DNA from: Acidobacteriota bacterium
GTDB taxonomy: Bacteria; Acidobacteriota; Vicinamibacteria; Vicinamibacterales; Fen-181
Direction of reading: 5' to 3'
Length of the DNA: 41,369 nt
Assembly: GCA_017883185.1 (NCBI GenBank)
Contig: JADGOB010000020.1
Span: forward strand, 1 to 41,369
Every line of letters starts with the position of its first letter. Within the stretch, counting starts at the first letter, position 1. The notes under the pieces are model-generated. The model was not told the origin of the DNA and ran no database searches. It saw nothing but the letters and a program-made list of their open reading frames with translations. A program made the position numbers and the translations under genes. Positions 2,320-37,702 of the stretch are shown one piece after another.

Positions 2320-4449
2320 ATGCCGTCATCGACCGTCGCCTCGTCCGCTGCCGGTATCACTGGCAGACTCCTGGTTGCGACGCTGGCCGCCGCATTCGGG
2401 TCGCTCGTGCTGGCCCAGGGGCAGCAGCCGCCGACGCCACCCGCGACTCAGAAGCCTCCCGCCACCCAGGGGCAGGCGCCCCAGGAACAGCGCCCGGTTT
2501 TCCGCGCCGAAGCGAACTTCGTCCGCGTGGACGTCTATCCGACCGCCGGCGGGAAACCGATCGTCGACCTCCGGCAGGAGGAGTTCGAGGTGCTGGAGGA
2601 CAACGTCCCGCAGCAGATCCAGACGTTCGAGCACGTCGTAGTCCAGGCGCCGACTCAGCAGGACAGAGCCCGCGCGCCAGAGCCGAATACCGTGACGCAG
2701 TCGCGCGAGATGGCCGCCGATTCGAAGGCGCGCCTCTTCGTCCTCTACCTCGACACGTATCACATCTCGCAATCGGGCGCGATGTCGGTGCGCGACGCGC
2801 TGATCCGGTTCCTGCAGCGGGCGCTCGGCCCGGACGATCTGATTGCCGTCACGACGCCGGAATTGCCGGCATCCACGGTCACGTTCGCCCGGCGCACGGC
2901 CAGCGTAGAGGAACTGGTGGACAAGTTCTACCGCTGGAGCCGGCGCGATTCGATCACACAGTTCGAACCGATCGAAGAGCAGTACATGCAGTGCTATCCG
3001 CAGGGGCTCGGCGAGACGGGCCGGATGTCGGCCATCGCGCGCGAGATGATCCAGCGGCGCCGCGAGCGGATCACGCTCGACTCACTCCAGGAACTGGTCG
3101 TCCACCTGGGAGGCATCCGCGAGGAACGGAAGGCGGTGCTGGCGGTCAGCGAGGGCTGGCTCCTGTATCAGCCGAATACCCAGCTCACGCGGACCACTGC
3201 CGGGCAGGCGAATGCCGGCTCTCAGTACCAGGCCCGCTGCGATGCCGACCGCTTCCGGTTGTCGCAGGAAGACCACGCCCGCGATTTCCGCACCATGCTC
3301 GATGACGCGAATCGGGCCAACGTCAGTTTCTACCCGCTCGACCCGCGCGGCCTCGTGGTGTTCGACACGTCGCTGGCCGACGAGATGATCGACCTGACGA
3401 CCGACGCCAGCCGGTTGAGCTCCCGGCTGGACTCGCTGCAGACCCTCGCGGGCGCGACCGACGGCATCGCCATCGTCAACAGCAACGACATCGACCGCGG
3501 GCTGCGGCGGGTCATCGACGACCTGACGTCGTACTACCTGCTCGGCTACTACTCGACCAACACGAAGTTCGACGGGCGGTTCCGATCGATCAAGGTGCGC
3601 GTGAAGCGTCCCGGGGTCGATGTCCGTGCGCGGCGCGGATACCGTGCGGCGACGAAGGAAGAAGTGGCGTCGCGCGCCAGCGCCACGACGACGCCGGGGA
3701 GCCCGGCCTCGCCGGTGGCCGGGGCCGTGTCGGGGCTCGGGAAGATCCGCGCGGATGCGACGGTTCATGCGCAGGTGGGCTACACGTGGGTGGCGGGCGC
3801 GGACGGCGCCATGCGACCGACCCTGTGGCTCGTGGGCGAATGGGACCCGGCGATTGCGACGCGGGACGAGCAGTGGAAGGCAGGCGCCGAGGTGAACGTC
3901 ACGGTGACGGCGCCCGACAAGGCCAACCTCGAGACCGCGCGCCAGACCCTGACGCGCGAGGCGCGGAGTTTTGTGATGCGCGTGGGGGTGCCGGCCGGTC
4001 AGACGGCGGGGGACTACACGCTGCGCGTGAGCAGCAAGCCGACCGGGACGACGCTGGGGAGCACGGAAACGCTGCACGTGACGGTGCCGAAGTGGCCGAC
4101 GGCAGGAGCGGTGGCGATCGGCCAGCCGGTCATCTTCCGGCGCGGCCCGTTCAGCGGGCCGGCCTGGATGCCGGCCGGCGACCTGCGATTCCGGCGGCAG
4201 GAACGGGTGAAGGTGGAGGTAGTCGTCGCGGGACCGATGACGTCGAGCGCGGTGCGGTTGCTCGATCGCGCGGGTAACCCGCTGAGCCTGCCGGTCACCG
4301 CGAGCGAGCGCGACGAGGACGGCGCGAAGATCGTGTCGGGTGAAGTGACGCTGGCGCCGCTCAGCATCGGCGACTACGTACTGGAGACCACGATCATGCA
4401 GGGGACGACGACGCAGAAGGTGTTGGCCGCGTTCCGGATTGTCCCCTGA
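2320..4449 (+). CDS. secreted VWFA-related domain protein (Acidobacterial type)
   Basis: 709 residues. A signal peptide (about 1-33, hydrophobic core LLVATLAAAFGSLVLA) and a Pro/Gln-rich linker are followed at 61-105 by the strand-rich block FRAEANFVRVDVYPT...VDLRQEEFEVLEDN that opens proteins of the TIGR03436 family. The von Willebrand A fold begins near 138 with LFVLYLDTYHIS. The metal-binding DxSxS motif is not canonical (D145-TYHIS), as is common in this family. After the A domain (ends near 440 with RVKRPGVDVRARRGYRA) comes a C-terminal region of about 270 residues rich in beta strands. ATG 2320 follows AAGGA at good spacing. The role is unknown; such proteins are exported and very abundant in Acidobacteria. 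Confidence 0.88.
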   Translation: MPSSTVASSAAGITGRLLVATLAAAFGSLVLAQGQQPPTPPATQKPPATQGQAPQEQRPVFRAEANFVRVDVYPTAGGKPIVDLRQEEFEVLEDNVPQQIQTFEHVVVQAPTQQDRARAPEPNTVTQSREMAADSKARLFVLYLDTYHISQSGAMSVRDALIRFLQRALGPDDLIAVTTPELPASTVTFARRTASVEELVDKFYRWSRRDSITQFEPIEEQYMQCYPQGLGETGRMSAIAREMIQRRRERITLDSLQELVVHLGGIREERKAVLAVSEGWLLYQPNTQLTRTTAGQANAGSQYQARCDADRFRLSQEDHARDFRTMLDDANRANVSFYPLDPRGLVVFDTSLADEMIDLTTDASRLSSRLDSLQTLAGATDGIAIVNSNDIDRGLRRVIDDLTSYYLLGYYSTNTKFDGRFRSIKVRVKRPGVDVRARRGYRAATKEEVASRASATTTPGSPASPVAGAVSGLGKIRADATVHAQVGYTWVAGADGAMRPTLWLVGEWDPAIATRDEQWKAGAEVNVTVTAPDKANLETARQTLTREARSFVMRVGVPAGQTAGDYTLRVSSKPTGTTLGSTETLHVTVPKWPTAGAVAIGQPVIFRRGPFSGPAWMPAGDLRFRRQERVKVEVVVAGPMTSSAVRLLDRAGNPLSLPVTASERDEDGAKIVSGEVTLAPLSIGDYVLETTIMQGTTTQKVLAAFRIVP

Positions 4450-22200: not shown

Positions 22201-22256
22201 CAGAATTTAGAATTCAGGATTCTGACTTCTCACTTCAGGGTTCGAGGTTCTGAGCG
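22201..22256. repeat. heptamer-phased repeat running into phoU (locus D)
   Basis: Eight in-phase 7-base units: CAGAATT TAGAATT CAGGATT CTGACTT CTCACTT CAGGGTT CGAGGTT CTGAGCG. The phoU stop codon lies at 22235-22237, so the last three units encode the final residues of PhoU and the rest is the gap before yacG. Confidence 0.7.
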
Positions 22257-22915
22257 TGCCTGACGTCTTTCGCCGACACGACGAAAATGATGTCCTCGGC
22301 GATGTTGGTGGCGTGGTCGCCGATCCGTTCGAGGTGGCGTGAAATCAGGATCAATTCCAGTCCGGCTTCGATCGTGGTCGGGTCCTGGAGCATGTAGGTC
22401 AGAAGTTCCCGGAAGATCTGCGTCTTATAGTTGTCCAGCAGATCGTCCCGCACGAGGACGGATTGCGCCAGGTCGACGTCGCGCTTGACGAAGGCATCGA
22501 GCGCATCACGCAGCATGGTCTGGGCGATCTCCGCCATGCGGGGCAGATCGAGGAGCGGCTTGACTGGGGGCAGCGCAAGATACCGGTGCGCCGCCTCTGC
22601 GATGTTGACGGCCATGTCGCCGACGCGTTCGAGGTCGCTGTTGATCTTCAGGGCCGCCACGATCACCCGCAGGTCCGACGCCATCGGCTGGTGCAGGGCC
22701 AGCAGGCGGAACGCGAGTCCGTCGATCTCGACGTGCAGTTGGTTGATCGGCTCGTCACCCTTCAGCACCCCATCGAGGCGTACCGGGTCGCGTGAGACAA
22801 GGCCGTCAACCGCCGACTGGACCCGGTCTTCGGCAAGGCCCCCCATCGCGAGGATGCGGGCTTTCAGCTGCCCGAGTTCTTCCTGGAAGTGCCTGACCGG
22901 CTCCCTCTTCTCCAT
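22235..22915 (-). CDS. phoU: phosphate signalling protein PhoU
   Basis: 226 residues, all helical, with two PhoU repeats each carrying an E/DxxxD-type metal motif: KINSDLERVGDMAVNIAE (90-107) and LISRHLERIGDHATNIAED (190-209). PhoU connects the PstSCAB transporter to PhoR and keeps the regulon off when phosphate is plentiful. It follows pstB by 57 bases on the same strand. ATG 22915 gives MEKREPVRHFQEELGQLK, a standard opening. The last six codons lie inside a heptamer repeat array, so the extreme C-terminus may vary. Confidence 0.96.
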   Translation of the reverse strand: MEKREPVRHFQEELGQLKARILAMGGLAEDRVQSAVDGLVSRDPVRLDGVLKGDEPINQLHVEIDGLAFRLLALHQPMASDLRVIVAALKINSDLERVGDMAVNIAEAAHRYLALPPVKPLLDLPRMAEIAQTMLRDALDAFVKRDVDLAQSVLVRDDLLDNYKTQIFRELLTYMLQDPTTIEAGLELILISRHLERIGDHATNIAEDIIFVVSAKDVRHAQNLEP

Positions 22916-22972: not shown

Positions 22973-23839
<867 letters not shown>

Positions 23840-23871
23840 GCCAGCAGCATAGCGGCCGTCCGTTGCTGCCG

Positions 23872-23888
23872 GGTTTCCAGCGTGTTAA
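23872..23888 (-). promoter_or_regulatory. candidate PHO box upstream of pstB
   Basis: On the minus strand TTAACACGCTGGAAACC has half-sites TTAACA and GAAACC at an 11-base period, the helical spacing used by PhoB/PhoP proteins. It lies 32 bases before pstB in the direction of transcription. Two similar sites precede pstC and the porin-pstS pair. The second half-site here is the weakest of the set. Confidence 0.45.
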
Positions 23889-23922
23889 TTCGGCGTTTCG
23901 TCGTGCGGTGCGGTGCTAGACG

Positions 23923-25197
23923 CTAGGCGACCGTGCCTTCGGGGACCACACCCCACTTGGGCACGATGATGATGCCGTTACGGATGTGGTAGCCGTCGCC
24001 GTCGGCGTTCTCCACGCCCGACTCGTTGGTCAGCCGGACCCCGCGGCCAATCCGCGCGTTCTTGTCCACGATCACGCGGTCGAGGATCGAGCCGGCGCCA
24101 ATGCCCATCTCCGGGCCGCCCCCGTCGTGGATCGGGGCATCGTCGTCGTGCTCGTAGAAGTCGGCGCCGAGCAGCACCGACCGGCTGATCCGGCAGCCGT
24201 CGCCGACGCGGGTGCGGATGCCGACGATCGACTGCGAGACCGTGGACTTGTCCACGTAGCACCCTTCGGCGATCACCGCCTGATCCACCGTGCACTCGTT
24301 GAGATGGGAACCGGGCAGGAACCGGGGACGGGTGAAGACGGGTCTGTGCGGATCGTAGAAGCTGAACGGCGCGCGGTGGCGCGTCAGCATGATGTTCGCG
24401 TCGTAGAACGACTCGACCGTTCCAACGTCCTGCCAGTAGTCGCGGAACAGGTACGCGTTGACGCGGCGCGCGCCGAGCGCGGCCGGGATGATCTCGTGGC
24501 CGAAGTCCACGCCCGCGTGGCGTTCGATCGATTCGAGCAGCACGTCGCGGGTGAAGACGTAGACCCCCATCGACGCGACGAACGGCTTGTCCGGGGCCGT
24601 CTGCATGAACCGCGATCCGGCCGGAATGCTCGAACCGATCGTGTTCAACCGCTCCGCGCTGGGCTTTTCCTCGAACCCCACGATCTGGCCGCCGGCGTCG
24701 AACCTGAAGATCCCCATCGCCTGGGCCTCGCCGGGCGTCACCGGCTGCGCCGCGATCGTGATGTCGGCGCGCCGATCCACGTGTTCCTCGATCATCGCCG
24801 TGTAGTCCATGCGGTAGATCTGATCGCCGGCGAGGATTAGGTAGTACTCGGCGTCGTGATAGATGAAGTGACGGGCGGCCTGGCGGACGGCATCCGCCGT
24901 CCCCTGGAACCAGTTAGGATTGTCAGGCGTCTGTTCCGCGGCCAGGATCTCGACGAACCCGCGCGAGAACAGATCCATCCGGTACGTCTCCGCGACGTGC
25001 CGGTTGAGCGACGCGGAGTTGAACTGGGTCAGCACGTAGATCCGGCGGATATCCGCGTGGAGGCAATTGCTGATCGGAACGTCAATCAGCCGGTACTTGC
25101 CGGCGATCGGAACGGCCGGCTTGGCCCGGAGGTGGGTGAGGGGAAAGAGACGGGCGCCCCGCCCGCCGCCGAGGATGAGTGCGAGGACCTGTTTCAT
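23923..25197 (-). CDS. glgC: glucose-1-phosphate adenylyltransferase
   Basis: 424 residues. Makes ADP-glucose for glycogen synthesis. The nucleotidyltransferase domain begins ALILGGGRGARLFPLTHLRAKPAVPIAGKYRLIDVPISN (positions 6-44), the family's glycine-rich loop and substrate site; WFQGTADAVRQ, ILAGDQIYRMDY and VGTVESFYDANI follow. The C-terminal left-handed beta-helix (about 300-424) has SVLLGADFYEHD and GVENADGDGYHIRNGIIIVPKWGVVPEGT. It lies between phoR (39-base gap) and pstB on the same strand, an unusual place, and may be co-transcribed with phoBR. Confidence 0.96.
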   Translation of the reverse strand: MKQVLALILGGGRGARLFPLTHLRAKPAVPIAGKYRLIDVPISNCLHADIRRIYVLTQFNSASLNRHVAETYRMDLFSRGFVEILAAEQTPDNPNWFQGTADAVRQAARHFIYHDAEYYLILAGDQIYRMDYTAMIEEHVDRRADITIAAQPVTPGEAQAMGIFRFDAGGQIVGFEEKPSAERLNTIGSSIPAGSRFMQTAPDKPFVASMGVYVFTRDVLLESIERHAGVDFGHEIIPAALGARRVNAYLFRDYWQDVGTVESFYDANIMLTRHRAPFSFYDPHRPVFTRPRFLPGSHLNECTVDQAVIAEGCYVDKSTVSQSIVGIRTRVGDGCRISRSVLLGADFYEHDDDAPIHDGGGPEMGIGAGSILDRVIVDKNARIGRGVRLTNESGVENADGDGYHIRNGIIIVPKWGVVPEGTVA

Positions 25198-25236: not shown

Positions 25237-26994
25237 CTAACCGAGCGGAAGGCTGATCGTGAACACCGCGCCGCCTTCCGGCCGGTTGGCCGCCCAGACC
25301 TGTCCGCCCAGTACGTCGATGAGGTGCTTGACGATCGACAGCCCGAGCCCGGTCCCGCCCGACTCGCGCGAACGGGCCTTGTCGACGCGGTAAAACCGCT
25401 CGAAGACCCGCTCGAGATCCGATTCGGGAATGCCAGGGCCTTCGTCCGACACCGTGATGGCGACGCGGTCGCCGTTCTGCCGGGCGTCCAGGCGGATGCG
25501 TGTCCCTTCCGGTGAGTAGTTGACCGCGTTCTCGACCAGGTTCCGGATGGCGTCCTGCAGTTTCTGGGGGTCGGTGCGGACCGTCGTCACCTCCGGGGCC
25601 ACGCCAATCGTCACCTCCTGGCGTCGCGACTCGATGATCGTGGCCAGGTCCGCAATCGCGCCAGCCAGCAGCCCCGGCAGCGGACACGTCGATTGCTCGA
25701 CCGGTTCCTGCCGCGCGTCGAGTCCGGCCAAGCGGAGGAGGTCGCGGACCAGGCGCTCCATCCGGCTGACGTGGCGTGCGATGACGTCGAGGAACCGGGC
25801 GCGATCCTCGACGCTCGCAGGGTCGTCGGTCAGCGCCTCGACGTAACCTCTGATGGCCGTCAGCGGCGTGCGCAACTCGTGCGAGACATTCGCGACGAAA
25901 TCGCGGCGGACCTGGTCGGCGCGGCGCAGGTCTGTGATGTCGTGGAGGACGAGCACGGCGCCGGTCACCGAGGGCGCCGACACCGGTGTCGCGCGGGCCA
26001 CGAGCCGCCGTCCGGGGGTTCTCGCGGGCGACAGCTCGAGGTGGGGTGGCTGCCGGCCCTCGAGTGTGTCGGTCAGCAGCGCCGCAATGCCCGGGTGACG
26101 CACCGATTCCAGGTAGTGTCCGCCGACCGTCGCGTCGTCGAGCGCGAGCATCGCGCGCGCCGCTCGATTCACCAACTGGACGCGGCCCTGGCTGTTGACC
26201 ACCATCACGCCTTCGACCATGCCCGTGAGGATCGCGTCGGTACGCGCCCGATCCTGCCGCAGTTCATCGACGCGGCTGGCGAGCTCGCGCACGGTGTCGT
26301 CCAGCACGCGGGCCACCGTGCCCAGCTCGTCCCGCTCGTAGTCGCGCACCCGCTGCGACAGGTCGCCCGACGCGAAGCGGCGCGCGGCGCTCGCGATGGC
26401 CTGCAGCCGTCGGCCGAGCAGGACGGAGGCGATCCACGCGAGGGCCAGGGCGCCCACGAGCGCGACGCCGAGCGCCACCAGTGTCATGTGCCGTACGGAC
26501 GCCACCTGCTGCTGGACCTCGGTCAGCGGCAGCGCGAGCCGGACCATCGTCATCCGTGGATGGTCGATGGTGACCGCGACGTACAGCATGTCGGTCTGGA
26601 TCGTGTGGCTGTAGCGGCGGGAGATGCCAACCCCCGTCGCCTTCGCCTGGAGCACTTCCGGCCGCGTGGCGTGGTTCTCGAGTGTGGAGAGGGTCGCGCC
26701 GCTCACCATGGAATCGCCGACGACGGTGCCGTCGGCCGCGATCAGCGTCACCCGTGCCGACAGGGTCTTCCCGATTCGGCCGGCTTCGGACTCGATGGCG
26801 CCGGAAGGGAGATCGCGTTCGTGCGTGGAGAGGACGTCGGCGACGAGATGCGCTTCGGAGACCAGCGACTGCTCGATCCGCCGGTACGTCTGTTCCGGGA
26901 GGGACAGGGACACGAGCGTCGCCACCAGCAGGAGGCACGCGGCCGCGACGCCGAAGATCGCGACGAATATCTTCCCCCGAAACCCGAGGTGCAT
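25237..26994 (-). CDS. phoR: phosphate regulon sensor histidine kinase PhoR
   Basis: 585 residues. Two membrane segments (about 8-28 and 165-187) flank a periplasmic sensor region of some 135 residues; then a HAMP domain (RRLQAIASAARRFASGDLSQRV), a PAS domain (DAILTGMVEGVMVVNSQGRVQLVNRAARAML), the HisKA motif FVANVSHELRTPLTAIRGYVEAL with the phosphoacceptor His, and the catalytic domain with NLVENAVNYSPEG, DEGPGIPESDLERVFERFYRVD and GGTGLGLSIVKHL. The large periplasmic domain differs from E. coli PhoR, which has almost none. Start is ATG 26994, 26 bases after phoB; upstream frame is the shadow of phoB. Assignment to phosphate rests on its neighbours. Confidence 0.92.
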   Translation of the reverse strand: MHLGFRGKIFVAIFGVAAACLLLVATLVSLSLPEQTYRRIEQSLVSEAHLVADVLSTHERDLPSGAIESEAGRIGKTLSARVTLIAADGTVVGDSMVSGATLSTLENHATRPEVLQAKATGVGISRRYSHTIQTDMLYVAVTIDHPRMTMVRLALPLTEVQQQVASVRHMTLVALGVALVGALALAWIASVLLGRRLQAIASAARRFASGDLSQRVRDYERDELGTVARVLDDTVRELASRVDELRQDRARTDAILTGMVEGVMVVNSQGRVQLVNRAARAMLALDDATVGGHYLESVRHPGIAALLTDTLEGRQPPHLELSPARTPGRRLVARATPVSAPSVTGAVLVLHDITDLRRADQVRRDFVANVSHELRTPLTAIRGYVEALTDDPASVEDRARFLDVIARHVSRMERLVRDLLRLAGLDARQEPVEQSTCPLPGLLAGAIADLATIIESRRQEVTIGVAPEVTTVRTDPQKLQDAIRNLVENAVNYSPEGTRIRLDARQNGDRVAITVSDEGPGIPESDLERVFERFYRVDKARSRESGGTGLGLSIVKHLIDVLGGQVWAANRPEGGAVFTISLPLG

Positions 26995-27020: not shown

Positions 27021-27725
27021 CTACCCCTCGTCGTCTCCCGCTGGCGGGTCGGCAAGCTTGTAGCCGAATTGCTTGACCGTGACGAGCGCCTCGGCCAGGA
27101 GGGGAATCTTCTCCCGCAGCCGGCGAACGTGCACATCCACCGTGCGCGTCCCGCCCGTGTATTGATAGCCCCAGACGTCCGACAGCAGACGGTCGCGTGA
27201 CAGCACCCGTCCCCGGTGCTGGATGAAGAACTCCAGCAGGAGGAACTCCTTGGCGGTGAGCACTACCTCCCGGCCGTTGTCCTTCACGACATGCTGCTCG
27301 CGGTCGATCGCGATCCCCTCGTAGGTCGTGCGGCCGTCGCCCACCGTTCCTCCCCTCGACGCCCTCCGCAGGAGCGCGCCGATACGGGCGACCAGCTCTT
27401 TCGGGCTGAACGGCTTGGTCAGGTAGTCGTCGGCGCCCAGCTCGAGGCCGGCCACGCGGTCCGACTCTTCTGCCCGGGCGGTGACGACGATGATCGGCAG
27501 GTCCACGGTCGCGGGATCGCGCCGCAGCGCCTGGCAGATCTCCAGGCCGTGGAGACCCGGCAGCATCAGGTCCAGCACGAGCAGGTCCGGTCGTCGGGCG
27601 CGCACTCTCGGCAGGGCCTGGGTGCCCGACGCCAGCACCTCCGCGGTGTGGCCGGCCTTCACCACGTAATGCCGGATCAACTCGGCGATGTCCCGGTCGT
27701 CTTCGACGATGAGGATATGGCTCAC
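27021..27725 (-). CDS. phoB: phosphate regulon response regulator PhoB
   Basis: 234 residues. Receiver domain with acidic pocket D9-D10, phosphorylation site D52 (LVLDLMLPG), IIVVTAR and DDYLTKPFSPKEL; C-terminal OmpR/PhoB winged helix with LTAKEFLLLEFFIQHRGRVLSRDRLLSDVWG and TRTVDVHVRRLREKI. ATG 27725. It is first in the minus-strand run phoB-phoR-glgC and is divergent from pstC; the 143-base gap holds a candidate PHO box that could serve both directions. Specific assignment as PhoB comes from context and from VWGYQYTGGTRTVDVHVRRLREKI, common in this clade. Confidence 0.93.
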   Translation of the reverse strand: MSHILIVEDDRDIAELIRHYVVKAGHTAEVLASGTQALPRVRARRPDLLVLDLMLPGLHGLEICQALRRDPATVDLPIIVVTARAEESDRVAGLELGADDYLTKPFSPKELVARIGALLRRASRGGTVGDGRTTYEGIAIDREQHVVKDNGREVVLTAKEFLLLEFFIQHRGRVLSRDRLLSDVWGYQYTGGTRTVDVHVRRLREKIPLLAEALVTVKQFGYKLADPPAGDDEG

Positions 27726-27768
27726 AACAGCGTCTGTTCGGCGTCAATCCTCTCAGCCCGTCCGCTCG

Positions 27769-27807
27769 CTGTCAACTGCTTCCCGCGCTCGTAACACCCA
27801 TTTAACA
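27769..27807 (+). promoter_or_regulatory. candidate PHO box between phoB and pstC
   Basis: GTAACACCCATTTAACA at 27791-27807 has two half-sites, GTAACA and TTAACA, at an exact 11-base period. CTGTCA at 27769-27774 lies two periods upstream, in phase, and resembles a proteobacterial PHO half-site. It is 61 bases from the pstC start. Similar sites precede pstB and the porin-pstS pair. Confidence 0.55.
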
Positions 27808-27868
27808 GCGCCGACACGCCGGCGAAACGTCGCCTGCCTAGACTGCAGAGCGTGATGAGACTGCGGAC

Positions 27869-28813
27869 ATGAGGGGGATCCTGTCGGTCGTCGCGACGCG
27901 GCTGCGGAGGGGCGACGCCGTGGCGCACGCGTTCACCTTTGTCTTCGGCGCCACCGTGGTTGGCGTGACCGGCCTGCTCGCATGGGAACTCTGGCGCAAC
28001 TCGGCCCTCGCACGGCAGCAGTTCGGGTGGGGGTTCCTCGTCTCCCAGACATGGGACCCGGTGGCCGGGCAATTCGGCGCCGCGGCATTCGTGTACGGCA
28101 CGCTGATGACGTCGGCCCTCGCGCTGATCATCGCGGTGCCGCTTGGCGTGGGCGTCGCGATATTCCTGGCGGAGCTCGCGCCGCCGCGGCTCTCCGCGGT
28201 GGCCGGGATGCTGCTCGAGTTGCTGGCGGCCATTCCAAGCGTCATCTACGGCCTGATCGGCATCGCCGTCCTGGTGCCGGCGATGCGGCAGTGGGTGCAG
28301 CCGATCCTGAAGACGGCCACCGGGGGATTCCCGCTGTTCAGTGGCCCTGCCTACGGGATCGGCCTCCTCACGGCCGGAATCGTCCTCGCCATCATGATCG
28401 TGCCATTCATCGTCTCGGTCGGGCGCGAGGTGCTGCTCTCCGTGCCGCGCGAGCAGCGCGAGGCGGCGCTGGCGCTTGGATCCACGCGCTGGGAGAGTAC
28501 CTGGAAGGTCGTGCTCCCGTACGCCCGTCCCGGGCTCTACGGCGCGATCTTCCTCGCGCTCGGCCGCGCGCTCGGTGAAACGATGGCCGTGACGATGGTC
28601 ATCGGCAACCGGCCGGAGATCGCCGCGTCGCTGTTCGCGCCGGCCTACTCGATGGCGGCCGTGATCGCGAACGAGTTCAGTGAGGCCACCGAGGAGCTGT
28701 ACCTGCATTCGCTCATCGAGGTCGGCCTCGTCCTCTTCTTTTTGACGATGATCATCAACATGGTCGCCCGGGGACTGATAGCCGCCACCGCGGGACCAGG
28801 TACCGCGCGATGA
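27869..28813 (+). CDS. pstC: phosphate ABC transporter permease PstC
   Basis: 314 residues with six membrane segments, the first at about 25-46. The permease coupling (EAA) loop reads REQREAALALGSTRWESTWKVVLPYARPGLYGAI, with a preceding PFIVSVGREVLLSVP. LLELLAAIPSVIYGLIGIAVLVP is diagnostic of PstC. It forms the channel with PstA, driven by PstB. ATG 27869; TGA overlaps the pstA start (ATGA). pstS and pstB are elsewhere in the window. Confidence 0.96.
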   Translation: MRGILSVVATRLRRGDAVAHAFTFVFGATVVGVTGLLAWELWRNSALARQQFGWGFLVSQTWDPVAGQFGAAAFVYGTLMTSALALIIAVPLGVGVAIFLAELAPPRLSAVAGMLLELLAAIPSVIYGLIGIAVLVPAMRQWVQPILKTATGGFPLFSGPAYGIGLLTAGIVLAIMIVPFIVSVGREVLLSVPREQREAALALGSTRWESTWKVVLPYARPGLYGAIFLALGRALGETMAVTMVIGNRPEIAASLFAPAYSMAAVIANEFSEATEELYLHSLIEVGLVLFFLTMIINMVARGLIAATAGPGTAR

Positions 28814-29658
28814 CCCTCCTGTTCCGGAACCAACGCCGGAAAATCGTGAACGTGGTGATGCTCGGCATGACGGCGTTCTCCACGCTGCTGAGCGTCTCGG
28901 TGCTGTTCTTCGTCCTCGTCTACCTGATCGTCAAGGGCGGCAGTTCCCTGAACGTGGCGTTCTTCACCGAACTTCCGAAACCGGTCGGCGAGAGCGGCGG
29001 CGGGATGGCCAATGCGCTCGTGGGGAGTGCGAAGATGCTGGGGATCGCGGCGATCACCGGGCTGCCCGTCGGCCTGCTGGCCGGCCTCTATCTGAGCGAG
29101 TTCGCGGGCCGGACGATGGCGGGCGCCGTCCGCTACGCGGCGGACCTGCTGAACGGGATGCCGTCGATCGTCGTCGGGATCTTCGTCTACACCCTCGTGG
29201 TGCTGCCGATGAAGCAGTTCTCCACGCTGGCCGGCGGGCTGGCGCTCGGGATCATGATGATCCCGATCATGACGCGCAGCACCGAGGAATTCCTGCGCGC
29301 GGTGCCGGTGTCGCTGCGCGAGGCGTCGCTGGCGCTGGGTGCGTCCCTCACGCTGACGATCGTTCGGGTGGTTGTCCCGGCGGCCACCCGCGGTATCGTC
29401 ACGGCGGCCATGCTCGGCCTCGCCCGCGTGGCCGGAGAAACGGCGCCTCTGCTGTTCACTTCGCTCGGCAACGCGTTCTGGAGCCCGGGCGTCCTGCACC
29501 CGACCGCCTCGCTGCCGGTCATGATTTACAACTACGCGGTCTCTCCCTACGACGACTGGCACCGCCAGGCATGGGCTGCCGGCCTGGTCCTGCTGACGCT
29601 CGTCCTGCTCGCCAACCTCGGCGCCCGCTCCCTCCTCGGCGGACGTCGCCACGCCTGA
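28810..29658 (+). CDS. pstA: phosphate ABC transporter permease PstA
   Basis: 282 residues with six membrane segments. The family blocks are LLAGLYLSEFAG, AADLLNGMPSIVVGIFVYTLVV, and the coupling loop PVSLREASLALGASLTLTIVRVVVPAATRGIVTA, with GETAPLLFT near the C-terminus. ATG 28810 overlaps the pstC stop by 4 bases, so the two permeases are translated together. The next gene starts 105 bases downstream after a hairpin and a possible promoter. Confidence 0.96.
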   Translation: MTLLFRNQRRKIVNVVMLGMTAFSTLLSVSVLFFVLVYLIVKGGSSLNVAFFTELPKPVGESGGGMANALVGSAKMLGIAAITGLPVGLLAGLYLSEFAGRTMAGAVRYAADLLNGMPSIVVGIFVYTLVVLPMKQFSTLAGGLALGIMMIPIMTRSTEEFLRAVPVSLREASLALGASLTLTIVRVVVPAATRGIVTAAMLGLARVAGETAPLLFTSLGNAFWSPGVLHPTASLPVMIYNYAVSPYDDWHRQAWAAGLVLLTLVLLANLGARSLLGGRRHA

Positions 29659-29731: not shown

Positions 29732-29763
29732 TCGGCGGCTCTGAAGTGCCGAAGGGGGATAGT

Positions 29764-30381
29764 GTGGCGTTCCGGCTGATTCCAAAGGAAGAGAAGTTCT
29801 ACCAGGATTTTCTGGCGATTGCGGACGAGCTGAAGCACGGCGCCCGTTTGCTCGAGGAGATGCTGGCGACCGATCCGCCCGCGTGGGACAAGGCCGCGGA
29901 AATCAAGGAAGTGGAGCATAAGTGCGACTTCCTGAGCCACGAGGTGTACCAGCGGCTGCACCGCACGTTCGTCACTCCCCTGGACCGTGAGGACATCCAC
30001 GCCCTGGCTGGATCGCTCGACGACGTGATGGACGAGATCGACGCGACAGCCGGCTACGTGAGCCTGTACCGCGTCCCTGTCGTCCGCTACGGCGCGCGCG
30101 AGCTGGCCCGTATCATCACCGACTCGACCAAGGCGGTCCGGCTCGCGATGGGGGGGCTGGAGTTGCGGAAGGGCGTGTCGGAACCGCTCGTCGAGATCAA
30201 CCGGCTGGAGAACGAGGCGGACCGCATGCACCTCGAGGCGGTCAAGAAGCTGCTGGACGAGGAGACGGACGCGATCCTGGTGTTCAAGTGGAAGGAAATC
30301 CTCGACCGCCTCGAGGACGCGACCGATCGCTGCGAGGACGTCGCCGACGTGATCGAAGGCGTCGTGCTCAAGAACTCGTGA
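29764..30381 (+). CDS. DUF47 (PhoU-like) regulator of phosphate transport
   Basis: 205 residues, all helical, without membrane segments. The block VEHKCDFLSHEVYQRLHRTFVTPLDREDIHALAGSLDDVMDEID and the later LENEADRMHLEAVKKLL are typical of DUF47, a family related to PhoU that accompanies and regulates Pit transporters. GTG 29764 is chosen because GGGGGA lies just upstream; GTG 29746 is an in-frame alternative that would add six residues. The pit gene follows after 7 bases. A hairpin and a possible promoter separate this pair from pstA. Confidence 0.92.
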   Translation: MAFRLIPKEEKFYQDFLAIADELKHGARLLEEMLATDPPAWDKAAEIKEVEHKCDFLSHEVYQRLHRTFVTPLDREDIHALAGSLDDVMDEIDATAGYVSLYRVPVVRYGARELARIITDSTKAVRLAMGGLELRKGVSEPLVEINRLENEADRMHLEAVKKLLDEETDAILVFKWKEILDRLEDATDRCEDVADVIEGVVLKNS

Positions 30382-30388
30382 GGCCGGC

Positions 30389-31387
30389 ATGGACCTCTTC
30401 GTCGTCATCCTGCTCATCACCGTCGCCCTGGCCTTCGACTACATCAACGGTTTCCACGACGCCGCCAACTCGATCGCGACGGTCGTGTCTACCCGGGTCC
30501 TTTCGCCGGGGAAGGCGGTCATCTGGGCGGCGTTCTTCAACTTCGTCGCCGCGTTCGCCTTCGGAACGGCGGTCGCGAGGACGATCGGCTCGGGGATGAT
30601 CGACATCCACGCGGTCACCTTTGCCGTGATCTTCGCGGGGCTGGTGGGCGCCATCGCATGGGACCTGATCACCTGGTACTGGGGCCTGCCGACCAGTTCG
30701 TCGCACGCCTTGATCGGCGGGTACGCCGGGGCGGCCATCACCAAGGCTGGATTCTCCGTGATCATCCCCTCGGGGTGGACGAAAACGCTGGTCTTCACCG
30801 TGGTCTCCCCGGTGATCGGCCTGGTCGCGGGACTCGTGTTGATGGTCCTCATCTACTGGGTCTGCGCGCCAATGGCGCCGGCGCGGGTGGACAAGTGGTT
30901 CCGTCGTTTGCAGTTGCTCTCCGCTGCCTTCTTCAGCCTGAATCACGGCGCGAACGATGCCCAAAAAACGATGGGGATCATCGCGGGCGTGCTGTTCACC
31001 GCCGGCTATCTGCAGGGGGAATTTCGCGTGCCGATCTGGGTGGTGCTGCTGGCGCACGCGGCGATCAGCCTTGGCACCCTGTCCGGGGGCTGGCGGATCA
31101 TCCACACGATGGGATCGCGAATCACGAAGCTGCAGCCGGTCAACGGGTTCGCGGCCGAGACGGGAGCGGCGTCGGCCCTCCTCCTGGCCACGTCCTTCGG
31201 GATCCCGGTGAGCACCACGCACGCGATCACGGGGGCCATTGTCGGCGTCGGTGCCACGCGTCGCTGGTCGGCGGTGCGTTGGGGTGTGGCAGGACAGATC
31301 GTGTGGGCCTGGCTGCTGACGATCCCCGCCGCTGCGGCGATCGGCGCCGGGACCTACATCGTGCTCCGTTTCTTCGGCTTCGCCTGA
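30389..31387 (+). CDS. low-affinity inorganic phosphate transporter (Pit family)
   Basis: 332 residues with about ten membrane segments. Two copies of the family signature are visible: FDYINGFHDAANSIATVVSTRVL (15-37) in the first half and NHGANDAQKTMGIIAG in the second half; TSSSHALIGGYAGA and VSTTHAITGAIVGVGATRR are the paired GxxxSSxxA-type motifs. Pit carriers import phosphate or metal-phosphate with protons. It follows the DUF47 gene after 7 bases, the usual pair. A low-affinity Pit system directly behind pstC-pstA is uncommon. Confidence 0.95.
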   Translation: MDLFVVILLITVALAFDYINGFHDAANSIATVVSTRVLSPGKAVIWAAFFNFVAAFAFGTAVARTIGSGMIDIHAVTFAVIFAGLVGAIAWDLITWYWGLPTSSSHALIGGYAGAAITKAGFSVIIPSGWTKTLVFTVVSPVIGLVAGLVLMVLIYWVCAPMAPARVDKWFRRLQLLSAAFFSLNHGANDAQKTMGIIAGVLFTAGYLQGEFRVPIWVVLLAHAAISLGTLSGGWRIIHTMGSRITKLQPVNGFAAETGAASALLLATSFGIPVSTTHAITGAIVGVGATRRWSAVRWGVAGQIVWAWLLTIPAAAAIGAGTYIVLRFFGFA

Positions 31388-35326: not shown

Positions 35327-36379
35327 CTAGAGTCTGATCTTCTTCAGGGCTTCCATCTCGAGCTTGACCACGCTGTCGGGAAGCGGCGCGTAGCCGAGGC
35401 CGGCGGCGAGTTTCTGCCCGTCGGTCAGCGCCCAGTTCATGAACTCCACCATGGTCTTCGCCGCGGCCTTGTCCTTCGGGTTCTCGTAGAACAGGAGCCA
35501 GGTGAACGACGAGATCGGGTAGACCGCGTCGCCGGGCGCGTTGGTGATGGAGACGCGGAAGTCGGCGGGCATTGCCGCGCTTGCTGCCGCGGCGGCCGCT
35601 GTCACGGCATCCACCGACGCACCGACGAACTTCCCGGCGCTGTTCTGCACAAAGCCGTAGGCAATCTTGTTCTGCAGCGCGTAGATGAGCTCGACGTACC
35701 CGAACGCGCCCGGCGTCTGCTTGACGAGACCGGCCACGCCCTCGTTGCCCTTGCCGCCCAGGCCGACCGGCCAGTTCACCGCCGTCGAGACGCCCACGCG
35801 TTTCTTCCACTCCGGCGACACCTTGCCCAGGTAGTCCGCGAAGATGTAGGTCGTGCCCGATCCGTCGGACCGGTGCACCACGGTAATGTCCAGCCCGGGA
35901 AGATTCACGCCGGCGTTGAGCCTGGTGATCGCCGGGTCGTTCCACTTCGTAATCTTGCCCAGGAAGATATCGGCCAGGACGGTGCCGCTGAACTTGAGTT
36001 CGGTCTTGACGCCATCGACGTTGTACACGGGCACGACCGCGCCCAGGACGGTGGGGAAGTGCAGCACGCTGCCGGGCGTCGCGAGGAGCTGTTCCTTCGT
36101 CATCGGGCCGTCAGTGGCGCCGAAGAACACCGTCTGCGCGGTGAGTTGCCGAATGCCGCCGCCCGACCCGATCGACTGGTAGTTGATCTGGACCTTGGGG
36201 TTGAGCTTGTTGTACTCGCTGAACCACTTGGCGTAGATCGGGTACGGGAAGCTGGCGCCGGCGCCGTTGATCTGCTGCGCCTGTGCCGCGACGACGGCTC
36301 CGAGCACGCCAACGGCCAGGAGGACCACCAGGATTGTGAGCGAGCGGACACCGTGGATTGCACGAAGAACCGACTTCAT
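35327..36379 (-). CDS. pstS: phosphate ABC transporter substrate-binding protein PstS
   Basis: 350 residues. A signal peptide (about 1-34, ending VVAAQA) precedes the binding protein, which opens INGAGASFPYPIYAKWFSEYN and has QSIGSGGGIRQL, FGATDGPMTKEQL, HRSDGSGTTYIFADYL and GAFGYVELIYA, all contacts or family blocks for phosphate. No lipobox cysteine is visible, so it is periplasmic and soluble. ATG 36379 is preceded by AGGAGA. It follows the porin gene by 47 bases on the same strand; pstC-pstA and pstB are 7 to 13 kb away. Confidence 0.96.
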   Translation of the reverse strand: MKSVLRAIHGVRSLTILVVLLAVGVLGAVVAAQAQQINGAGASFPYPIYAKWFSEYNKLNPKVQINYQSIGSGGGIRQLTAQTVFFGATDGPMTKEQLLATPGSVLHFPTVLGAVVPVYNVDGVKTELKFSGTVLADIFLGKITKWNDPAITRLNAGVNLPGLDITVVHRSDGSGTTYIFADYLGKVSPEWKKRVGVSTAVNWPVGLGGKGNEGVAGLVKQTPGAFGYVELIYALQNKIAYGFVQNSAGKFVGASVDAVTAAAAAASAAMPADFRVSITNAPGDAVYPISSFTWLLFYENPKDKAAAKTMVEFMNWALTDGQKLAAGLGYAPLPDSVVKLEMEALKKIRL

Positions 36380-36426
36380 CGAACTCTCCTTCTGTGGGCC
36401 GGGCACAGGGCCGGCCCGGATGAAAC

Positions 36427-37599
36427 CTAGAAGCTGACGAGGGAGTGCAGGAAAATCTTCTGCTGCGTCGGCTTGGCGGTCGCGTAGTCGGTGAACGTCA
36501 CGTTCTCGACGTCGAACAGCAGTGCAAACGCCACGCTTCCAATCTTCGGGAACCAGTAGGCGATGCCACCGATGGTCCGCTTGTCGATGCCCTTGCCCGC
36601 GACAGTGCTGGCACCGATCGTCGTGATCTCGTTGTTCGGCTCCATGTAGTCGTAGCGCAACAACGCCTCCACCGACGACCCGTTGGCGAACACCTTCTTC
36701 GGCGTGCCCCAGATCGACCAGCCCTTCCCGTGCAGGTTCTGGGAGCCGGGTTTCGCCGATGACTGATCGTGGGTGTTCAGGTAGTCGAAGCCGATGTTGA
36801 GGTACGGGTGTTCGAACGTCGTGTTGAACACGGCGCGCGTCCGTTCGGCGTTCGACTGCACGCTGTCCGCGGTGTAGAACCCCTGCAGTCGCCAGCTCTT
36901 GAGGACCGGGTGCCGCGGAAGCGGCTTGAAGCCGACGCGGACCATCAAGGCCTTCTGGCTGTTGGCCTCCGCCTTCGAATACCCTTCACCGTTGTACACG
37001 CCGACGTGAATGTCGCCGTAGTTGTTCGGGAAGGTCGTTCGGAACGACACGCCTGCGTCGGCCGACGACATGTAACCGGCGCGCTCCGGGAAGACCGTGC
37101 CCTGGAACCGATACCGGTAGATGCCATCGACGCTGTCGATGAAGGGAGTCTGCTGGATGCCGAGCCGGATCCACGAACCTTTCGGGAGCCAGTCGTCCAG
37201 GTTGATCTGGGCGTACGCGTACTTCAGCCGGAAGGTCATGCTGCCGTTCAGCGAACTCCCGGTACCGCTCTCGCGCGTCACGTCCGGGGTGATACGGAAC
37301 GCGACGAGGTGCGAGATGTTGCCGGTCACGTTGATGTAGCTGCGCGCGACGTTGAACGAGTTCGAGTGAATCTCGTTGCCGTCCGCATCCTTCACGGTCG
37401 GTTTCTGCTGGAACGTGTAGTCCGCGAAGACGACGGCACCGATCTTGATCGACGGCGTGTCGTCGGGCGGCGTGTAGCCGGCCGCGGGTGTCACTTGTGC
37501 CTGTGCAGCCTGGCCGGCCACGAGGAGGAAGGCCACGGCCGCCATCGCGACGGCAACCAGGCGCACACGGTGTGCGAACAGCGCGTTGTGGGTATTCAC
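36427..37599 (-). CDS. phosphate-selective-type outer membrane porin
   Basis: 390 residues. A signal peptide (about 1-35, ending AAQAQ) and a body of alternating beta strands with a C-terminal Phe (HSLVSF), as in outer-membrane barrels. The order of blocks (IGAVVFADYTF, FNVARSYINVTGNISHLVAFRITPDV, FRLKYAYAQINLDDWLPKGSWIRLGIQQTPFID) is that of the OprP/OprO-type porin family. Expected role: let phosphate cross the outer membrane to PstS, whose gene follows after 47 bases. A candidate PHO box lies 86 bases upstream. ATG 37599 has GGAGA nearby. Selectivity cannot be read from the sequence. Confidence 0.8.
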   Translation of the reverse strand: MNTHNALFAHRVRLVAVAMAAVAFLLVAGQAAQAQVTPAAGYTPPDDTPSIKIGAVVFADYTFQQKPTVKDADGNEIHSNSFNVARSYINVTGNISHLVAFRITPDVTRESGTGSSLNGSMTFRLKYAYAQINLDDWLPKGSWIRLGIQQTPFIDSVDGIYRYRFQGTVFPERAGYMSSADAGVSFRTTFPNNYGDIHVGVYNGEGYSKAEANSQKALMVRVGFKPLPRHPVLKSWRLQGFYTADSVQSNAERTRAVFNTTFEHPYLNIGFDYLNTHDQSSAKPGSQNLHGKGWSIWGTPKKVFANGSSVEALLRYDYMEPNNEITTIGASTVAGKGIDKRTIGGIAYWFPKIGSVAFALLFDVENVTFTDYATAKPTQQKIFLHSLVSF

Positions 37600-37656
37600 C
37601 TGAGTCTCCTTTGGTCTGCGCGAACCTCGTGCGGATCAACCGAGCCTCAGAATACG

Positions 37657-37702
37657 AACCTGTTGTGTCAGCCAGTGGTCGGCTGCGTTACAACAGGGTT
37701 AA
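37657..37702 (-). promoter_or_regulatory. candidate PHO box within a hairpin upstream of porin-pstS
   Basis: On the minus strand TTAACCCTGTTGTAACG (37702-37686) has TTAACC and GTAACG at an 11-base period, like the sites before pstC and pstB. It overlaps an inverted repeat: AACCTGTTGT (37657-37666) against ACAACAGG (37690-37697), with an inner CAGCC/GGCTG helix. The hairpin lies behind the second kinase gene and could also end its transcript, although no T run follows. Confidence 0.5.

Follow-up and report, generated by a model that had tools for sequence, protein, structure and literature searches.

The gap between the divergent phoB and pstC genes held a tandem array of four 11-bp direct repeats, and it was very probable that this array was a PHO operator that phosphorylated PhoB would read to switch on pstCA (Table 1). 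The repeat was almost certainly a docking site for a phosphate-starvation regulator. It was located in the window, i.e., the whole stretch of 41,369 nucleotides that was analysed here. Judging from sequence comparisons, a real and functional-looking PHO operator, ordinary in kind, was well supported; the unexpected part was which regulator appeared to carry the box.

The initial annotation had described two half-sites exactly 11 bp apart between divergent phoBR and pstCA, and both the spacing and the location were confirmed. Namely, GTAACACCCATTTAACA (27791-27807, plus strand) had GTAACA at 27791 and TTAACA at 27802, and the gap between phoB (minus strand) and pstC (plus strand) was 143 bp long (27726-27868). 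Two more units, GACACG at 27813 and GAAACG at 27824, continued the repeat in register, so the site had at least two direct repeats with an 11-bp period, as a PHO box generally does. The first two units scored 10.6 and 10.7 bits as half-sites, and units 3 and 4, at 3.9 and 7.6 bits, were weaker ones. The fourth unit was followed by TGCC (4 bp) and then by TAGACT (27839-27844), the predicted -10 element of pstCA. Neither these two units, nor the -10 element, nor two sister boxes in the window were part of the initial annotation. The array was directed at pstC, and no recognisable -35 element was found before the pstCA -10. The absent -35 and the constant distance from the last unit to the -10 would agree with recruitment of RNA polymerase by PhoB.

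The proposed mechanism was as follows. Under phosphate limitation, PhoR would phosphorylate PhoB, and PhoB would fill the array, binding head-to-tail on the four tandem 11-bp half-sites, most simply as two dimers, as the number of half-sites suggested. PhoB would then recruit RNA polymerase, replacing the -35 contact, and pstCA would be turned on. Operators 2 and 3 would turn on porin-pstS and pstB-phoU along with pstCA. The phoBR genes would not be driven by the array in the usual manner and would have a separate promoter.

Table 1. Features of the phosphate cluster in the window; operators and promoter elements are predictions
Feature	Coordinates	Strand	Remarks
PHO operator 1, before pstCA	27791..27834	+	four 11-bp direct repeats: 27791 GTAACACCCAT, 27802 TTAACAGCGCC, 27813 GACACGCCGGC, 27824 GAAACGTCGCC
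pstCA promoter -10, TAGACT	27839..27844	+	4 bp past the fourth 11-bp unit; TA..CT kept in the genus
phoB promoter -35, TTGACA	27770..27775	-	TGTCAAC identical in 5/5 genus genomes; complement GTTGACA
phoB promoter extended -10, TGA-GAGGAT	27747..27755	-	17 bp from the -35; TGA-[GC]A[GC]GAT in 5/5 genus genomes
PHO operator 2, before porin-pstS	37659..37702	-	TTAACCCTGTT GTAACGCAGCC GACCACTGGCT GACACAACAGG; PWM 31.2 bits; R1 E = 9.6e-6
porin-pstS promoter -10, TATTCT	37649..37654	-	
PHO operator 3, before pstB-phoU	23856..23899	-	GAAACGCCGAA TTAACACGCTG GAAACCCGGCA GCAACGGACGG; PWM 25.8 bits; R1 E = 0.00145
pstB-phoU promoter -10, TATGCT	23846..23851	-	
phoB, OmpR/PhoB-family response regulator	27021..27725	-	Response_reg and Trans_reg_C; proposed reader of the operators
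phoR, sensor kinase	25237..26994	-	HAMP, PAS, HisKA, HATPase
pstC, first gene after operator 1	27869..28813	+	BPD_transp_1
pstA	28810..29658	+	BPD_transp_1
pstB, first gene after operator 3	22973..23839	-	ABC_tran; named from its position beside phoU and other pst genes
phoU	22235..22915	-	PhoU
outer-membrane porin-like gene, first after operator 2	36427..37599	-	open reading frame; similar genes follow the same box in relatives
pstS, phosphate-binding protein	35327..36376	-	PBP_like_2 (family search on 35327-36406)

The cluster also held other genes. Directly 3' of pstCA (29746-31387), a family search found genes for a DUF47/PhoU_div protein and a Pit-type transporter, so that the cluster had two proteins of the PhoU kind and two transporters for phosphate. 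The glgC gene (ADP-glucose pyrophosphorylase) was located between phoR and pstB, inside the cluster (23923-25197), and a glgC relative was also present in the clusters of seven other loci (L107, L108, L110, L113, L117, L118, and L119). Adjoining porin-pstS, the segment 37732-41367 contained two neighbouring thymidylate-kinase-like genes and a PPX/GppA-like gene (by eye from translations), and one more open frame on the opposite strand.

The specificity of the array was examined with a matrix (PWM) of 66 positions trained on 24 pstS-operon promoters outside the window's genus. Over the ~82,600 positions of the window, three places stood out, 37708 (minus strand, 31.2 bits), 27785 (plus strand, 29.4 bits), and 23905 (minus strand, 25.8 bits), each coordinate being the first base of the 66-mer; the next score was -5.3. 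These were the promoters of porin-pstS, pstCA, and pstB-phoU, and a counterpart of operator 3 was present in G001, G003, and G004. A sequence-only covariance model (R1) was built from 27 boxes, none of them from the window's own genome (G000). In this 4.85 Mb draft genome of 395 contigs, where 150 of 1326 first-look candidates were scored, R1 recovered only the three window operators (E = 4.2e-6, 9.6e-6, and 1.45e-3), and the next match had an E-value of 1.2. Operator 1 was the best site of the genome by R1 (E = 4.2e-6) and the second in the window by the matrix. Each genome-wide match with E <= 0.0015 preceded a Pho operon; the weak matches L071 and L072 (E 1.2 and 1.7) spanned half the model.

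The simpler patterns were compared as well. The 17-mer GTAACACCCATTTAACA was single-copy in the genome, and [GT]TAACA-N5-[GT]TAACA had a single match over the two strands of the window and none in 100 simulated first-order Markov windows. The bare pair TAAC-N7-TAAC was not enriched, since it had six genomic matches, fewer than the backwards control (10). Two of the six preceded Pho operons of the window in the same register; the other four (L034 to L037) were dropped because, by eye, they had no downstream units and -10 in register.

The array recurred across the order, presumably Vicinamibacterales, the lineage of the relative G009. Matches to pstS were found in 33 of 100 related genomes, and 30 pstS loci were searched up to 1500 bp upstream. 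The two-half-site pattern was present in 20 of them, and a leave-one-out matrix placed an array in 28 (29.8 to 57.1 bits). The remaining two, L061 and L063, had no array in the 1500 bp upstream of pstS and scored -13.4 and -17.8. Among the controls, the best shuffled score was 3.2 bits; reverse-strand scores were below 0 for 24 loci and above 5 for the remaining six, one of which was the divergent box of G006. The consensus of the 28 boxes was WTTAAC-N6-GTAACA-N5-GA-N9-GANAC-N10-TANNNT, and the TAnnnT -10 was invariant, in the same register, in 27 aligned boxes. Since the matrix itself picked the sites, the letters of the weak units were sharpened by selection; the separation from the controls was not accounted for in this way. 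The initial annotation had proposed to look at relatives, and both checks were run: each of the five genus genomes compared kept the repeat in its homologous gap, and the motif scan gave the 28 of 30 pstS loci. The box was therefore conserved both before pstC and at further Pho promoters, like a PHO box in general. Taken with the array itself and the genome-wide specificity, its recurrence before Pho operons argued for the PHO-box-type operator that had been suggested.

The genes behind the array were mostly phosphate genes. In a tally of 64 distinct array sites, in which some loci were training sites and two rows overlapped, 46 preceded pstS, porin, pstC, pstB, phoU, phoR, or a PhoB-like gene. 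Five sites preceded beta-barrel-like proteins (no Pfam name or no family search), and for nine no convincing downstream gene was seen (L088, L097 plus strand, L103, L104, L106, L212, and the third-rank sites in L086, L087, and L090). Another four preceded TonB-dependent-receptor-like genes with CarboxypepD_reg, Plug, or barrel domains (L082, L083, L092, and L101 3-416), which were possible uptake routes for organic phosphate. R1 matched at E <= 0.1 in 21 of 25 genomes, the window's own included. A phylum-wide sample gave matches at E <= 0.01 in 27 of 247 genomes, with about 2 to 3 expected by chance; 21, counting the window's own genome, belonged to the order and six lay outside it. The 21 are a count and give no rate within the order, since 200 genomes without a match were absent from the listing.

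We compared the array with known operators. Effector domains of the PhoB family sit head-to-tail on direct repeats (PMC4415409). Like the array here, the E. coli PHO box has 11-bp direct repeats upstream of a TAnnnT -10, pst targets, and an OmpR/PhoB-family reader with a PhoR partner (PMC4415409, PMC1906773). However, the half-site here was [GT]TAAC[AG] rather than CTGTCAT, there were four units compared to the E. coli minimum of two, and by our own count the last unit was ~2-3 bp nearer the -10. The E. coli-type half-site was not found, the consensus of the 28 boxes having TTAAC and GTAACA instead. The Bacillus subtilis PhoP box consists of TT(A/T/C)ACA units repeated in the same orientation, with 5 +/- 2 bp between them (PMC3036859). 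TTAACA at 27802 fitted this half-site exactly and GTAACA was one base off, whereas units 3 and 4 did not fit. There are four such repeats per promoter in B. subtilis. In comparison, the spacing here was strictly 5 bp, G was favoured as the first letter of the second unit, the last two units were degenerate (GA....., GANAC), and the genome was G+C-rich and from the phylum Acidobacteriota. The cyanobacterial SphR box, at least three tandem 8-bp repeats CTTAACCT per promoter with 3-bp linkers (PMC1906773), shared the 11-bp period and the TTAAC core; in contrast, the array here had four units at a fixed -10 distance and GTAACA as its second unit. The Streptomyces PHO box likewise has 11-nt direct repeat units and a phosphate regulator as reader, but its unit is GTTCACC (PMC6988585).

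The actinobacterial GlnR box was close as well. It reads gTnAc-n6-GaAAc-n6-GtnAC-n6-GAAAc, or t/gTAAC-n6-Gc/aAAC in Mycobacterium smegmatis, and in a solved activation complex with RNA polymerase four GlnR protomers are bound head-to-tail on four sites (PMC10704036). The 5+6 grammar was shared, and the letters and spacing of the a-b-a-b array (GTnAC-n6-GAAAC) fitted nearly in full. However, GlnR serves nitrogen genes, and the genes here were phosphate genes with a PhoR-PhoB pair. GlnR is also not known to have an adjoining PhoR-type partner. The operator appeared to be a PHO box whose consensus was specific to the lineage and less like E. coli CTGTCAT than like the operators of Bacillus PhoP and actinobacterial GlnR. 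As the initial annotation had proposed, it was nearer to the Bacillus half-site than to the E. coli one. Among the titles listed in a search of the open-access literature, no paper on a PHO box in Acidobacteria was found.

The promoter of phoB offered another reading of a motif that the initial annotation had placed two periods upstream of the repeat. Across the genus (five genomes, G000 to G004), the aligned gap had invariant columns on TGTCAAC, GTAACAC, TTTAAC, GACA, CGAAA, and TA..CT, and only 2 of 14 columns were invariant in 27776-27789. The half-site letters of operator 1 were kept in all five, as were the elements of both promoters. CTGTCA was indeed located at 27769, in phase and 22 bp 5' of GTAACA at 27791. 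However, as a lineage half-site it scored -13.4 bits, and 44 per cent of the 6-mers in the window did as well or better. Its first C was not conserved among the five genomes, and the unit between it and GTAACA, TTCCCG at 27780, was not a half-site. We therefore rejected CTGTCA as a third half-site. With TGTCAAC conserved, a 17-bp distance to the extended -10, and a random-like half-site score, the more fitting reading of CTGTCA was the phoB -35 seen on the opposite strand. The extended -10 sat just before the phoB start, but its hexamer was poor (3/6 consensus letters), so the phoB promoter, too, was a prediction. From this predicted sigma70-type promoter, separate from that of pstCA, phoBR would run leftward.

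The initial annotation had also suggested that the site could autoregulate phoBR, and this found no support. A bidirectional array, where PhoB at 27791-27834 would also activate or repress the divergent phoBR promoter, was unlikely. The array started 15 bp upstream of the phoB -35, close enough for contact or exclusion, and the five genus genomes all kept this distance. Two back-to-back four-unit arrays, one facing phoR and the other pstC, occupied the phoR-pstC gap of G006 (L101, ~3830-3960). On the other hand, the array in the window was directed away from phoB, which had its own consensus -35 and extended -10. The best PhoB match was taken in each of 60 relatives, 49 of them at >= 58 per cent identity, and none of 30 phoB orthologs had an array facing it within 400 bp; in L226 and L241 there was a two-half-site remnant only. 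An array facing pstC was present in 3 of these 30 loci, all from the window's genus.

The boxed PhoB-like genes of relatives were at first taken as phoB orthologs, and this assignment was rejected: box-blind ortholog sampling gave two clades, with boxes only in the second. This clade of PhoB-like response regulators, B2, was ~49 per cent identical to PhoB and 68 per cent identical among its own members (9 and 10 proteins). In 31 B2 loci (L250-L280), picked by identity and E-value regardless of any model match, an array scored above 0 bits before B2 in 30 and above 8 bits in 29, and the control gave 0 of 31. The exceptions were G024, a clear miss, and G012 (10.0 bits), whose -10 was out of register. 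B2 was present in G006, G008, and G009 at 66 to 77 per cent identity, whereas the search of the window's genus found none. There, the best B2 match in G000, G001, G002, and G004 was phoB itself, which suggested that the genus lacked B2 and that PhoB was the likely reader. In G003, a draft 77 per cent complete with phoB split in the assembly, the best match was another regulator (43 per cent).

Since no B2 was found in the genus, PhoB would be the sole regulator inside the cluster; response-regulator searches had dozens of further matches in the genome, and a different member of the OmpR family could be the reader. It was nevertheless improbable that the arrays are read by a regulator other than PhoB, be it a nitrogen regulator of the GlnR type or a second response regulator resembling PhoB. 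B2 itself was preceded by the array in most of the order, the operator grammar equalled the published one of GlnR (PMC10704036), and the effector domain of the window's PhoB was closest to the solved chains 8hih, 8hml, and 8hig. We take these to be GlnR entries. The domain also aligned, less strongly, to the E. coli PhoB effector chains 1gxp, 1qqi, and 3t72. Against a different reader, the arrays persisted in the genus although no B2 gene was found there, and their targets were phosphate genes and not nitrogen genes. Finally, it was extremely improbable that the repeat had arisen by chance because the DNA between the two genes was richer in A+T. The gap was slightly lower in G+C (61.5 compared with 66.6 per cent for the window), but the simulated windows, the ranks by matrix and model, and the order-wide recurrence in a fixed register spoke against chance, and shared descent of the whole gap as a source of the register was contradicted by the differing genes and operons behind the box.

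The order as a whole may have a two-regulator circuit, which we put forward tentatively. Box-free PhoB/PhoR would turn on B2 via the four-unit operator, B2 would amplify the regulon, and positive feedback would act on B2 instead of PhoB. The window's genus would have lost B2 and kept a feedback-free regulon of three transport operons within 14 kb. PhoA (PF00245), PhoD (PF09423), and PhoX (PF05787) were not found in the genome; some named control genomes matched.

Similar arrays were also seen beyond the order. Among 80 pstC loci in named records from several phyla, 17 had an array above 8 bits (including L121, seemingly the genus member G001), and the reversed-sequence control gave 0 of 80. 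Four-unit arrays near pstC were observed in L154, L155, L157-L160, L178, and L190, from records titled Bacteroidetes, Ignavibacteria, Omnitrophica, unnamed bacterium, and Paradesulfitobacterium. Since several of the 17 were from A+T-richer genomes, to which the matrix was not tuned, a wide spread of TTAAC-type PHO operators was a lead only. Separately, a metagenome-assembled record titled Bordetella parapertussis had a pstC 62 per cent identical to that of the window, and its title looked mislabelled.

These results provided a usable phosphate-control consensus for a mostly uncultured lineage of Acidobacteriota, so that its regulons may be predicted from draft genomes. They also suggested that TTAAC-type four-unit PHO operators were not restricted to Bacillus and cyanobacteria. 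The arrays of the same grammar in other phyla open a way to test if CTGTCAT, the E. coli form, is derived, and the box-free PhoB next to a box-controlled second regulator poses a concrete question about how the phosphate response of this order may be wired.
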